From Deltaproteobacteria bacterium (lineage in GTDB: Bacteria > Desulfobacterota > Desulfobacteria > Desulfobacterales > C00003060), in contig JAUVJO010000003.1 of NCBI GenBank assembly GCA_030592345.1, positions 1 through 33,548 on the forward strand: a stretch of DNA of 33,548 nucleotides. Reading direction: 5' to 3'. Made by a program: the position numbers and the translations under genes. Numbering within the stretch: position 1 is the first letter of the stretch; each line of letters starts with the position of its first letter. The notes under the pieces were generated by a model. That model saw only the letters and a list, made by a program, of their open reading frames with translations. It made no database searches and had not been told where the DNA came from. This document shows positions 6,328 through 33,548 of the stretch, piece after piece.

Positions 6328-6360
6328 CGTTACCTATATTCCTCAATCCCTAATCACAAC

Positions 6361-6400
6361 TTTAGGCACTTTAGCTCACTTCAGACACTTTAGACACTCG
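6361..6400. repeat. 9/10-bp array, TTTAGGCAC/TTTAGCTCAC type
   Basis: tttaggcactttagctcacttcagacactttagacactcg. Confidence 0.9.
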
Positions 6401-9457: not shown

Positions 9458-9475
9458 AGTTTATTCACTAATATA

Positions 9476-9644
9476 AAGTGCCTAAAGTGAACTAAAGTGA
9501 GCTAAAGTGTCTAAAGTCAAGAAAAGGAGGATTTCAGGAATTGAGGTCGGATAGATATCTTTCAATTCACAATTCCCCGGTTCCCCAATCCTTAATAATC
9601 ACAACTTTAGGCACTTTAGCTCACTTTAGACACTTTAGGCACTT
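9476..9644. repeat. inverted pair of 9/10-bp arrays
   Basis: Forward agtgcctaaagtgaactaaagtgagctaaagtgtctaaagt (9476-9517) and reverse actttaggcactttagctcactttagacactttaggcact (9605-9644). Confidence 0.92.
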
Positions 9645-18200: not shown

Positions 18201-18203
18201 AAC

Positions 18204-18364
18204 TATACCTCGGAAGGTCACAAGTTGCGCTTTTCTCGGTGAGTCATGAGCATCAAGAGCAAGGCGCGAAGGCGCGGAATAGCTGGCTATTGCAAGCCTG
18301 AGCAACACGGCTATTAATGTTCATGGCCGGCGAAAAAGTGTCATTTGTGGCCTTTCGAGGTATA
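18204..18364 (+). repeat. hairpin element family 2, copy 1 (161 bp)
   Basis: TATACCTCGGAAGGTCACAAG...CATTTGTGGCCTTTCGAGGTATA imperfect terminal inverted repeat; near-identical to 23581-23741. Confidence 0.94.
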
Positions 18365-18365
18365 A

Positions 18366-19910
18366 CTAATAACTAATATTCTTTAACAGGGGAAAGAGGA
18401 TCACTTCACGGATGGAAGGCGCATCGGTCAGCAACATGACAAATCTGTCAACGCCGATGCCTTCACCCGCTGTTGGAGGCATGCCGTATTCGAGAGCTAA
18501 CAGGTAGTCTTCGTCCATGTAGTGTGCTTCTTCGTCACCTTCCTCACGATTTTTAGCCTGATCCAAGAAGCGCTTTTTCTGGTCAATAGGGTCGTTGAGT
18601 TCCGAAAACCCGTTGGCGATCTCGTAGCCTCCAATAAAGAGCTCGAATCGCTCGGTCATATCAGGGTCCGAGCTGCTCCTCCTGGCAAGTGGCGAGATTT
18701 CCACTGGATAGCCTGTAATAAAAGTGGGCTCGGTCAGTTTGGGCTCCACTAATACGTCGAAAAGCTTTGTCAGGATCTTGCCTCTCCGCCCTTTTTTCGT
18801 AATGTGGATCCCTTTGGATTCGGCAAAATCGAGCAATCGCTTCCGATCATTGAACAGGGAAGAATCAATGCCGCCCAGATCACTCAGTGCTTCCTTCAGT
18901 GTTAATCGTCGCCAAGGTCCATCCAAGTCAATGTTCATCCCCTGGTATGTAAAATGAGTCGCCCCAAAAACCCGCTGGGTCACGAATCGGAACATCTCCT
19001 CGGTAAAATTCATAAGATCGTCATACGTCGCATAAGCCGCATAGAATTCCAACATGGTGAATTCCGGATTGTGTCGGCTTGAAACACCTTCGTTTCTGAA
19101 ATTTCGGTTTATTTCAAAAACTCGATCAACCCCCCCAATCACCAATCGCTTTAGATAGAGCTCGGGTGCTATCCGCAAGAAAAGCTCCATGCCTAATGCG
19201 TTATGAAATGTTTTAAATGGGGTAGCCTCAGCCCCGCCGGGGATGGGCTGCATCATGGGTGTCTCCACCTCGAGGAAACCCTGTTCAAGTAGATAGTCCC
19301 TAAAGGCTCGAATAATTCGTGCCCTGTTGATAAAAATGTCCCGGACACCCGGGTTCATAATCAAGTCAAGATACCTCTGGCGGTAACGCTTCTCCGGGTC
19401 CCTTAGTCCGTGGAATTTTTCGGGCAGTGGCCTAACCGCCTTACAAAGCAGGCAAATCCCTTTGGCCAAAAGAGTCCATTCACCTGTCTTTGTCTGAAAT
19501 ATTGTCCCCTTGATTCCGATGAAGTCACCAATGTCAACTTGTTTGAACAACTCGTAGGCATCTTCGCCAACCTCGTCTTTTTTTACGTAAGCTTGAAGCT
19601 GCCCCGTGTAATCCTTGAAATGGAGGAACGCAGCCCTTCCGAAAGACCTGAGCCCGACAATCCGGCCAGCCATTGCAAAAAAAGTCGAATCATCGGCAGC
19701 CGTATCTTTTTTGCCAATATGCTTCCTTACGTCCTCGACACTGTGAGACACCTTGAAATCGTTGGGATAAAGCTCGACACCCTGGTCAGCCAGTGCCTTT
19801 GCTTTTTCTCGTCGTTGGCGAACAACTTCACTCGATTCGTCCACAGTACACCGATACCTCACCGAAAAGTTTAAGAAATCTTTGCTAGCCCATTTGCCAT
19901 AACGTGTCAA
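18366..19910 (-). CDS. lysS: lysyl-tRNA synthetase, class II
   Basis: 514 aa ORF; FLEVETPMMQPIPGGAEATPFKTFHNALGMELFLRIAPELYLKRL, GEGIGVDRFVMLLTDAPSIREVILFPLLK; true start probably GTG near 19844. Confidence 0.96.
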   Translation of the reverse strand: MTRYGKWASKDFLNFSVRYRCTVDESSEVVRQRREKAKALADQGVELYPNDFKVSHSVEDVRKHIGKKDTAADDSTFFAMAGRIVGLRSFGRAAFLHFKDYTGQLQAYVKKDEVGEDAYELFKQVDIGDFIGIKGTIFQTKTGEWTLLAKGICLLCKAVRPLPEKFHGLRDPEKRYRQRYLDLIMNPGVRDIFINRARIIRAFRDYLLEQGFLEVETPMMQPIPGGAEATPFKTFHNALGMELFLRIAPELYLKRLVIGGVDRVFEINRNFRNEGVSSRHNPEFTMLEFYAAYATYDDLMNFTEEMFRFVTQRVFGATHFTYQGMNIDLDGPWRRLTLKEALSDLGGIDSSLFNDRKRLLDFAESKGIHITKKGRRGKILTKLFDVLVEPKLTEPTFITGYPVEISPLARRSSSDPDMTERFELFIGGYEIANGFSELNDPIDQKKRFLDQAKNREEGDEEAHYMDEDYLLALEYGMPPTAGEGIGVDRFVMLLTDAPSIREVILFPLLKNISY

Positions 19911-19950: not shown

Positions 19951-20055
19951 TATAGACTTTCAAATATTAAATTTCACAAGGCCAGAGGGAGGAGGCTGTA
20001 TTGTAATACGCCGACGACTGATAACGCAGTGAAATTTAATACGTGAAAGTCTATA
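19951..20055 (+). repeat. hairpin element family 1, copy A (105 bp)
   Basis: TATAGACTTTCAAATATTAAATTTCAC...core...GTGAAATTTAATACGTGAAAGTCTATA; core AAGGCCAGAGGGAGGAGGCTGTATTGTAATACGCCGACGACTGATAACGC. Confidence 0.95.
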
Positions 20056-21552: not shown

Positions 21553-21665
21553 TATAGACTTTCACATATTAAATTTCACAGCGTTATCGGTCGTCGACGT
21601 ATTACAGTATTACAATACAGCCTCCTCCCTCTGGCCTTGTGAAATTTAATATGTGAAAGTCTATA
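21553..21665 (-). repeat. hairpin element family 1, copy B (113 bp, core reversed)
   Basis: Same 27-bp terminal inverted repeats; core reversed and carrying an internal 8-bp TGTAATAC duplication. Confidence 0.95.
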
Positions 21666-23453: not shown

Positions 23454-23580
23454 TCACTCTATTCTAGGCTACTCCCGGTTTCCATTGGAGGCCCTGCTGA
23501 GCAGGATTCTCCTTGCCCGCAAGGCCATTACAACAACCTCAAGCAATACGGATTTTTTGAAAAGTTAGTTTTTCTTGACC

Positions 23581-23741
23581 TATACCTCGGAAGGTTATAA
23601 ATGGCGATTTTCTCGGTGAGTCATGAGCATCAAGAGCAAGGCACGAAGGCGCGGAATAGCTGGCTATTGCAAGCCTGAGCAACGCGGCTATTGATGTTCA
23701 TGGCCGGCGAAAAAGTGTCATTTGTGGCCTTTCGAGGTATA
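23581..23741 (+). repeat. hairpin element family 2, copy 2 (161 bp)
   Basis: Same length and sequence family as 18204-18364, with few substitutions. Confidence 0.94.
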
Positions 23742-23835
23742 ACATGGTAGACTCATTATAAATCAAAAAGCTCAAGAAAGACGAATCTACCTTACTATAA
23801 ATAACTATCAGACTTCGGACCGAAAGGCAATTCCT

Positions 23836-26132: not shown

Positions 26133-26230
26133 GGGCGTGTCCAGAACTTTGGGGATGCACTTATGAAACGACTTGCGCCACATTTGTGGAGTACATTAAG
26201 TGCCTAAAGTGAGCTAAAGTGCCTAAAGTT
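26133..26230 (+). repeat. composite dispersed repeat copy 1 (about 70 bp unit plus 9/10-bp array)
   Basis: GGGCGTGTCCAGAACTTTGGGGATGCAC..GAAACGACTTGCGCCACATTTGTGGAGTACATTAAGTGCCTAAAGTGAGCTAAAGTG; matches 33371-33481. Confidence 0.9.
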
Positions 26231-26360
26231 AAGGTGTTCTGCCTATTTTAAATATGTTGCGCCGGAGACGCACTGCTTAATCCCGCTAAAGGCAGGACTC
26301 ACTTTCTTGCAATAATAAAACTGTTTCTTCAAGTCCTTAATCCCGCTAACAGCGGGACTC

Positions 26361-27200: not shown

Positions 27201-27205
27201 TGGAT

Positions 27206-27321
27206 AAAGTGCCTAAAGTGAGCTAAAGTGAGCTAAAGTGCCTAAAGTTAAAAGAAAAAACCAAATTTTTGCAAAGAGTTTCCTCAGCTTGCAACCAAAA
27301 TTAAGCTCACTTTAGCACTTC
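27206..27321. repeat. inverted pair of 9/10-bp arrays between truA and argC
   Basis: Forward agtgcctaaagtgagctaaagtgagctaaagtgcctaaagt (27208-27248) and reverse aagctcactttagcactt (27303-27320). Confidence 0.88.
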
Positions 27322-28662: not shown

Positions 28663-28767
28663 TATAGACTTTCACATATTAAATTTCACAAGGCCAGAGG
28701 GAGGAGGCTGTATTGTAATACGCCGACGACCGATAACGCCGTGAAATTTAATATGTGAAAGTCTATA
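28663..28767 (+). repeat. hairpin element family 1, copy C (105 bp)
   Basis: Perfect 27-bp terminal inverted repeat TATAGACTTTCACATATTAAATTTCAC around the consensus core. Confidence 0.97.
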
Positions 28768-29197: not shown

Positions 29198-29302
29198 TAT
29201 AGACTTCCACATATTAAATTTCACAAGGCCAGAGGGAGGAGGCTGTATTGTAATACGCCGACGACCGATAACGCTGTGAAATTTAATATGTGAAAGTCTA
29301 TA
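29198..29302 (+). repeat. hairpin element family 1, copy D (105 bp)
   Basis: Same terminal inverted repeats and core, between infA and rpsI. Confidence 0.97.
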
Positions 29303-29717: not shown

Positions 29718-30152
29718 CTAGACCTGAGGTCGCAGTGGTTGAGGCCGCTGTGCCACATGTGGGTGATCTGGTCCTGCATAAATTTTGAGTTTTGTTAGCA
29801 TTTTACGACCGAGTCTATTTTTTGGAAGCATCCCGCGGACAGCACAGGTGACCAAATCCTCAGGCCGCTTATGCAAAAGCTGTTTGGCGGTCATAGACTT
29901 AAGCCCCCCGACGTAACCACTGTGGCGATAGTACATCTTCTGGTCCCACTTCGCGCCTGTCAAAGCGACTTTAGCCGCATTAATCACAATGATGTGATCC
30001 CCAGTATCAATATGGGGCGTATAAATGGGTTTATGCTTTCCCGAGAGTCGAACGGCAACCAGGCTGGCGAGTCTGCCCAAAACACACCCGTTCGCATCAA
30101 TGACGTACCATTTTCTTCCAACTTCTTTTGGTTTTGCAGAATAAGTTTTCAT
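29718..30152 (-). CDS. rplM: 50S ribosomal protein L13
   Basis: 144 aa; [42 protein letters not shown]...[28 protein letters not shown]. Confidence 0.98.
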
Positions 30153-30223: not shown

Positions 30224-30396
30224 GGGAAAAATCACTCTTTGTTGCGCAAGCGCACTGGCGCTCAAACTTCTTGACAAACGCTCCGGATTCTAATACGTGA
30301 GCGATCTTAGGTGGTGCCTGAACGAAAGTTACCCTTCCGTGTCATTTCGAGCGAAGTGAGAAATATGTTGTTTGTTGTTTACGGATTTCTTCCCGC

Positions 30397-30502
30397 TATA
30401 GGCTTTAAGATAAAGATTTTGGGAAGGCTAGAGGGAGGAAGGCGTACTCGTCGTACGTTGACGACCGATAACGCATCCAAAATCTTTATCTTAAAGCCTA
30501 TA
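30397..30502 (+). repeat. hairpin element family 1, divergent copy E (106 bp)
   Basis: Different but perfectly paired 26-bp arms TATAGGCTTTAAGATAAAGATTTTGG/CCAAAATCTTTATCTTAAAGCCTATA with conserved core GAAGGCTAGAGGGAGG...GACGACCGATAACGC. Confidence 0.95.
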
Positions 30503-30596: not shown

Positions 30597-31271
30597 ATGA
30601 ACATTTTGATGTTTGGACCAAACGGCAGTGGCAAGGGGACACAAGGGGCGATCGTAAAGGACAAATACAATCTGCCCCATGTTGAATCAGGGGCAATATT
30701 CCGTGAAAATATCGGTAAAGGTACGGAAATCGGCGTCAAGGCCAAAGAATATATTGACCGCGGCGAATTAGTGCCGGACGAAATCACCATTCCGATGATT
30801 CTGGACCGCCTGAAACAAGACGATTGCAAAAATGGCTGGCTCTTGGATGGGTTCCCGAGAAACAAAGTACAGGCCATAAAACTGGATGAAGCCCTGAAGG
30901 CCGCTGGCTTGGATCTGGATATTGTGGTCGAGGTGCTTCTGGATAGAGAAATTGCCAAGAACCGTATTATGGGGCGCAGGTTGTGCGCGAACGACAACAA
31001 TCATCCGAACAACATTTTTATTGACGCAATAAAACCGGATGGCGACAAGTGCCGTGTATGCGGTGGCGATCTTTCAACACGGTCCGACGATCAGGATGAA
31101 GATGCCATCGGCAAACGCCACGCTATTTACTACGATACTGATACCGGCACGTTGGCAGCGACTTATTATTTCAAAGATCTCGCTGAAAAAGAAGGCAAAA
31201 TCAAATATATTAACCTGGATGGCTCCCCCGGCGTAAAAGAGGTAACGGCAGATTTGATGTCGAAACTGTAA
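30597..31271 (+). CDS. adk: adenylate kinase with Cys/His metal-binding LID
   Basis: 224 aa; MNILMFGPNGSGKGTQ P-loop, WLLDGFPRN, C-X5-H-X15-C-X2-C LID; SD AAAGGAGAGGAG. Confidence 0.95.
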   Translation: MNILMFGPNGSGKGTQGAIVKDKYNLPHVESGAIFRENIGKGTEIGVKAKEYIDRGELVPDEITIPMILDRLKQDDCKNGWLLDGFPRNKVQAIKLDEALKAAGLDLDIVVEVLLDREIAKNRIMGRRLCANDNNHPNNIFIDAIKPDGDKCRVCGGDLSTRSDDQDEDAIGKRHAIYYDTDTGTLAATYYFKDLAEKEGKIKYINLDGSPGVKEVTADLMSKL

Positions 31272-31332: not shown

Positions 31333-31447
31333 TATAGACTTTCAGATAATTAATTTCACAAGGCCAGAGGGAGAAATCCGAGTAAGGCGTACGTTGTCGA
31401 GGATTTTGACCGATAACGCCGTGAAATTATTTATCTGAAAACCTATA
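31333..31447 (+). repeat. hairpin element family 1, divergent copy F (115 bp)
   Basis: Arms TATAGACTTTCAGATAATTAATTTCAC/GTGAAATTATTTATCTGAAAACCTATA; core AAGGCCAGAGGGAG...GACCGATAACGC with replaced inner stem AAATCC/GGATTT. Confidence 0.93.
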
Positions 31448-32192: not shown

Positions 32193-32297
32193 TATAGACT
32201 TTCACATATTAAATTTCACAGCGTTATCGGTCGTCGGCGTATTACAATACAGCCTCCTCCCTCTGGCCTTGTGAAATTTAATATGTGAAGGTCTATA
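32193..32297 (-). repeat. hairpin element family 1, copy G (105 bp, core reversed)
   Basis: Consensus terminal inverted repeats and reversed core; starts 5 nt from the 5' end of tRNA-Leu. Confidence 0.97.
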
Positions 32298-33370: not shown

Positions 33371-33481
33371 GGGCGTATCCAGAACTCTTGGGGGATGCAT
33401 TCTCTTGAAACGACTTGCGCCGCATTTGTGAAGTACATTAAGTGCCTAAAGTGAACTAAAGTGAGCTAAAGTGCCTAAAGT
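33371..33481 (+). repeat. composite dispersed repeat copy 2
   Basis: GGGCGTATCCAGAACTCTTGGGGGATGCAT..GAAACGACTTGCGCCGCATTTGTGAAGTACATTAAGTGCCTAAAGTGAACTAAAGTGAGCTAAAGTG. Confidence 0.9.
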
Positions 33482-33548
33482 AAAGGATGATATCCATTTG
33501 TGTTAGAGAAGTACTTGCTGGAAAAGTGCCTAAAGTTGAAAGACAAAA

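Follow-up and report, generated by a model that had tools for sequence, protein, structure and literature searches.

Correia or NEMIS elements of Neisseria occur as ~107-bp units and as longer forms of ~155 bp that contain an internal insert, are bounded by 24-26-bp terminal inverted repeats with TA at the termini, and have been characterized through hairpin transcripts and through comparison of filled and empty sites (PMC2229807, PMC3049150). RUP of Streptococcus pneumoniae, a MITE of 107 bp, has ends similar to those of the IS630 element IS630-Spn1 and uses TA targets (PMC2229807, PMC3049150), with inverted repeats listed as only 9 bp (PMC2229807). A further MITE, residing in a dsrA intron of Candidatus Thiomargarita nelsonii, features TATAG/TATA termini and a long hairpin and has been likened to both Correia and IS630-type elements, with no parent IS element found there (PMC4853749).

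Here we examine a hairpin repeat, copy E (30397..30502, forward strand), within a 33,548-nt stretch of DNA (the window) that belongs to a MAG of 3.26 Mb in 444 contigs and about 90% completeness (G000). The repeat family to which it belongs is short and without coding capacity, carries terminal inverted repeats and is present in many dispersed copies, as MITEs are. In light of the results presented below, we consider it highly probable that copy E is a non-autonomous MITE mobilized by IS630-type enzymes, and that it represents a subfamily which obtained its own transposase specificity through recombination between core halves.

Copy E and its genomic setting

Copy E extends from TATAGGCTTTAAGATAAAGATTTTGG to CCAAAATCTTTATCTTAAAGCCTATA and is closed by a perfect 26-bp inverted repeat, with the left arm (TATAGGCTTTAAGATAAAGATTTTGG) at 30397..30422 and its exact complement, the right arm, at 30477..30502 (both +). 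The mobile unit, TAG...CTA, covers 102 bp (30399-30500, +) and is flanked on either side by a putative target duplication of TA (30397-30398 and 30501-30502, +), assigned from other copies of the family and from their empty and filled alleles. Between the arms lie a conserved 5' core block (AAGGCTAGAGGGAG, 30424..30437, +) that is nearly invariant over subfamilies and genomes, an inner hairpin CGTAC-TCGTC-GTACG (30443..30457, +) that is seen in the fold and whose helix covaries in long-core relatives, and a conserved 3' core block (GACCGATAACGC, 30463..30474, +). Retention of the core, noted in the first-pass annotation as well, is thus confirmed by the presence of both AGAGGGAGG and GACGACCGATAACGC. 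The same annotation had described the arm as almost wholly different from the consensus arm yet perfectly self-complementary: the complementarity stands, but the difference is smaller than claimed, with 17 of 26 bases equal to the T1 consensus arm TATAGACTTTCACATATTAAATTTCA (also 17 identical over 27 bases) and the differences falling mostly in the arm's inner third. The whole copy folds into a single long hairpin of -51.4 kcal/mol (z = -9.7), a value equalled by none of 200 shuffles.

As annotated earlier, the element sits between the divergent genes rplM (29718-30152, -) and adk (30597-31271, +), and the adk start lies 94 bp past it. A TTGACA-containing block is found 5' of the copy and is seen again, at similar spacing, in front of adk in several genomes of the genus; because copy E is placed downstream of this block and so close to the gene, it is likely part of the adk leader transcript. 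Searches at copy E returned no sigma-70-like promoter or terminator above chance, and the sole Rfam match at gathering score in the window was a tRNA, while a permissive Rfam search at the copy gave two weak miRNA matches far below cut-off. A REP-like stretch, TGTCATTTCGAGCGAAGTGAGAAAT, is found ~40 bp upstream (30340-30368).

Such a setting raises the question of whether copy E is a host cis-regulatory RNA, for example an adk leader attenuator or an RNase III site, and not a mobile element at all. Its position between the TTGACA-containing block and the adk start and its strong predicted hairpin (z -9.7) would be in keeping with such a role, as would the intergenic centres of 40 of the 48 family copies in 357 kb of sequence, 80% of which is ORF; purging of insertions from genes, however, would give this bias anyway. 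The reading is further contradicted by near-identical copies scattered in unrelated flanks, by the TA insertion alleles described below, by the absence of any Rfam family and by the adk leaders of the same genus: the 11 same-genus upstream regions of adk that were examined carry no element, a lack of locus conservation that the first-pass annotation had named as a point against its proposal of a second subfamily. We therefore regard a host regulatory RNA as very improbable.

Copy number, structural forms and target sites

That proposal, of a second subfamily defined by termini of its own, was to be checked by a genome search for E-type arms. In G000 the 32-base E arm plus core start has 62 matches (up to 3 mismatches) as opposed to 0 for the reversed control pattern, so the arm class is not a product of chance, and full-length E copies at 97-100% identity number at least 40. 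Together, these counts bear out the proposal and identify E as a recently amplified subfamily. The same holds beyond the genome of origin, where a near-identical E copy (L319) occurs in another family of the order; the absence of E-type copies from all related genomes, which the first-pass annotation had named as its other point of refutation, is thus not what we find. The repeat family as a whole is larger, with 388 matches to the core pattern in G000 (up to 1 mismatch) against 93 for the reversed pattern, or about 300 copies.

Three main forms can be distinguished: T1, with a short core and ATTTCAC arms, which accounts for the majority of copies in the window; E, which combines a short core with ATTTTGG arms; and an older form, in which a long core is joined to arms of either class. 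The T1-type copies of the window are located at 19951..20055 (+, consensus arms), 21553..21665 (-, with 8 extra core bases), 28663..28767 (+), 29198..29302 (+) and 32193..32297 (-), and a long-core copy with ATTTCAC (F) arms is found downstream of adk at 31333..31447 (+). Three long-core copies (L068, L069, L071) carry an extra small hairpin, TCCCGCTTTC(A)AGCGGGA, at the 5' arm-core junction. At four loci (L049, L059, L068, L073) one MITE copy is inserted at the end of another, with TATA shared or abutting, the end of one element having been the target for the next. Several intergenic places of the window also contain short arrays of CTAAAGTG / AAAGTGCCTAAAGT units (9473-9525, 26190-26232, 27204-27256, 33437-33489), with inverted copies at 6351-6399 and 9596-9644.

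Direct views of the insertion site come from empty and filled alleles. A 164-bp repeat of G000 is present twice in the window (18203-18366 and 23580-23743, 95% alike) in its empty form, GAAGGCGCGGAA-TA-GCTGGCTATTGCAA, with the unoccupied TA at 18280..18281 and 23657..23658 (neither assigned a strand); elsewhere in the genome, where this repeat is both target and carrier of T1 elements, a T1 element occupies exactly this position in the filled form GAAGGCGCGGAA-TATAGAC...GTCTATA-GCTGGCTATTGCAA. Likewise, an orthologous same-genus site, AAAAGC-TA-TGA, is filled by a long-core F-type copy in G005 and is a bare TA in G014, which is 98% identical to G005, and in G017, G008 and G019. From these alleles it follows that the mobile unit is TAG...CTA and that TA is duplicated. 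At the level of sequence, TA targeting with duplication is thus demonstrated for two types, T1 and long-core F. Empty counterparts of E-type copies did not turn up, and duplication by E itself is what its identical termini would predict. Abutting copies with a shared TATA had suggested that TATA is duplicated, a reading discarded on account of the single TA in the empty alleles; no flanking direct repeats longer than TA were detected. The flanks are biased, with C before the left TATA in 46 of 86 copies and G after the right TATA in 39 of 86, and this C-TA-TA-G bias fits IS630, for which a CTAG target preference is known.

The insertion alleles also bear on whether the element could be a palindrome of the REP type, mobilized by a Y1 (RAYT-like) enzyme. 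The long core does contain GGGAGAAATCC...GGATTTCGACC, reminiscent of REP hairpins, and the REP-like TGTCATTTCGAGCGAAGTGAGAAAT lies ~40 bp upstream of copy E. Y1 enzymes, however, produce neither long terminal inverted repeats nor TA duplication, both of which are in line with DDE transposition as carried out by Tc1/mariner-IS630 elements, and REP/RAYT elements are marked by the lack of a target duplication, which the empty-site alleles directly contradict. We consider such an origin hardly credible.

Arm classes, transposase clades and the origin of E

The arms themselves point to two kinds of IS630 partner. A complete IS630 element in the same genus (L234 in G005, at a locus identical to record Meg22_46_Bin_1) encodes a 371-aa transposase (NF033545, 4e-73; DDE_3) and has the ends TATAGCTTTTAAGAAAAACATTTTGGGG and TATAGACCTTACGAAAAAGATTTTGGGG, both of which match the E arm at 23 of 27 positions, including all of the innermost 11 at one end. 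A second element (L239), with a transposase 78% identical and similar ends, matches the E arm at 23/27 on the right and 19/27 on the left. Copy E thus has ends that match those of an autonomous IS630 element. The reverse is seen for a diverged IS630 (L269, 42% amino acid identity), whose ends match the F arm at 23-24/27 and the E arm at only 17-18/27, the F arm in turn matching the L234 ends at 16-18/27. Other IS630 loci of the order differ from any arm by 7 to 12 mismatches, most by 9 to 11, and seven further same-genus IS630 loci (L231-L233, L235-L238) were dismissed as partners, no matching ends having been found for them. This crossed pattern suggests that arm class follows transposase clade, as judged from few elements (E-like ends in L234 and L239, F-like ends in L269). 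A 58-bp bare hairpin (TATAGTTTTTCATTTAAATAAATTC...CTATA, L243:156-213) without the core lies ~750 bp from an IS630 transposase and may represent a minimal MITE that belongs to the F-arm IS630 clade.

In G000, an incomplete genome, neither the IS630 transposase domain PF13358 nor a match to the L234 protein was found, and the partner is therefore missing, unassembled or lost there. The lack of an autonomous partner in the same genome is common for MITEs and so does not disqualify the family. We infer that transposases of these clades move the MITE: an IS630-family transposase acting in trans would recognize the ~26-bp ends of copy E, excise the element at TAG...CTA and insert it at a TA dinucleotide with duplication of the TA. 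The E arms would then be terminal repeats belonging to one IS630 clade and the consensus T1/F arms those of a diverged one, with both types carried on the same core because core halves recombine between copies, making E a subfamily with its own transposase specificity.

How E acquired its arms can be judged from a tally of arm against core over 152 distinct copies. All four combinations of arm class and core length are found, both inside and outside G000, and two copies (L071, L287) are recombinant, pairing an arm of one class with an arm of the other across a junction in or near the shared core. Of the two routes considered in the first-pass annotation, these copies support arm exchange with another lineage; its label of "compensatory variant" is not supported, as the perfect arms are those of E's own master copy and match IS630 termini. 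The alternative, in which a consensus copy was turned into E where it stood, by paired substitutions retained for a functional RNA or DNA hairpin, is not without evidence: between subfamilies, covariation is seen at 14 of the 27 arm pairs, the outer and inner helices covary over genomes (19 of 46 pairs altered on both sides, with 93.9% of cells paired, a result reached by 0 of 500 shuffles and strongly degraded once partners are slid), and among 63 T1 copies the five positions altered on both arms are complementary in all five cases (shuffle mean 0.58; 0 of 5000 as high). Mutations in young copies are nevertheless mostly uncompensated, with perfect arms in only 21 of 63 T1 and 13 of 42 E copies; matched changes in the E set are not above chance (3 vs. 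a mean of 1.35, P 0.11); and both arm classes are older than G000 and match IS630 ends. Insertions at one orthologous site that bears both arm classes, moreover, appear independent.

This site is a TA occupied in the same orientation by an F-arm copy in G005 (L299) and an E-arm copy in G018 (L304); it overlaps an apparent start codon (CTATGA), the ATG of which is preserved via the TA duplication. An arm switch by conversion between the two genomes was rejected there, independent insertion being simpler since the 98%-identical G014 is empty.

Given the four combinations, the two recombinants and the rarity of matched changes in young copies, we judge it unlikely that copy E originated as a compensatory mutant of the consensus in place. 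Exchange, combined with selection for ends that match, accounts for E better than stepwise compensation does, though paired change may have contributed, and recombination between copies would be what made the E subfamily. MITE subfamilies are usually merely described; with arm classes tied to two transposase clades and exchange intermediates visible, a change of transposase partner by a non-autonomous element becomes testable.

The core module and comparison with described elements

Within the core, the blocks AAGGCYAGAGGGAG (5') and GACCGATAACGC (3') are nearly invariant, whereas the outer arms covary, as does the inner helix in long-core copies. The IS630 ends examined are without this core: they part from the MITE sequence within the arm, which means that the core does not stem from the IS and requires another explanation. 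By eye it can be drawn as a helix with repeated tandem G-A mismatches between G-C pairs, and a selected single-stranded structure is plausible.

Its distribution is wide. Same-genus genomes hold few copies, mostly long-core, and further families of both the order and the phylum also contain copies, in a phylum survey that scored the best candidates per genome and in which absence is weak evidence. A pattern scan of named genomes detected the long core in MAGs labelled Nitrospinota, Nitrospirae, Deltaproteobacteria, Proteobacteria and Desulfobacterales, with over a hundred matches in one Nitrospinota MAG. A single pattern match on a viral contig, in apparently coding sequence and without arms, was taken as chance. 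Tentatively, the core may be a motif, folded as RNA or as single-stranded DNA, whose function is under selection, for instance host-protein binding or transposition control, held between two covarying helices and spread across Desulfobacterota, Nitrospinota and Nitrospirota by acquiring locally served IS630 ends; we put this forward as a possibility that is less likely than not to be correct in full. The question of core function recurs in several phyla.

Overall, the repeats constitute a new IS630-type MITE family with subfamilies, and as such an already known kind of element. The dsrA-intron MITE shares TATAG/TATA termini and a long hairpin with the family of copy E, a likeness in termini and hairpin alone. 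RUP differs in its short inverted repeats; the arms of the present family are 26-28 bp, form perfect hairpins, come in exchangeable classes and enclose a conserved internal module. Correia/NEMIS elements, like RUP, resemble it in architecture, as small hairpin MITEs with a TA target and IS630-like ends, and, the resemblance to Correia/NEMIS being one of architecture, we set the family apart from theirs. Its hosts are others, each of its two arm classes finds its match in one of two IS630 clades, and its core module is common to distant genomes.
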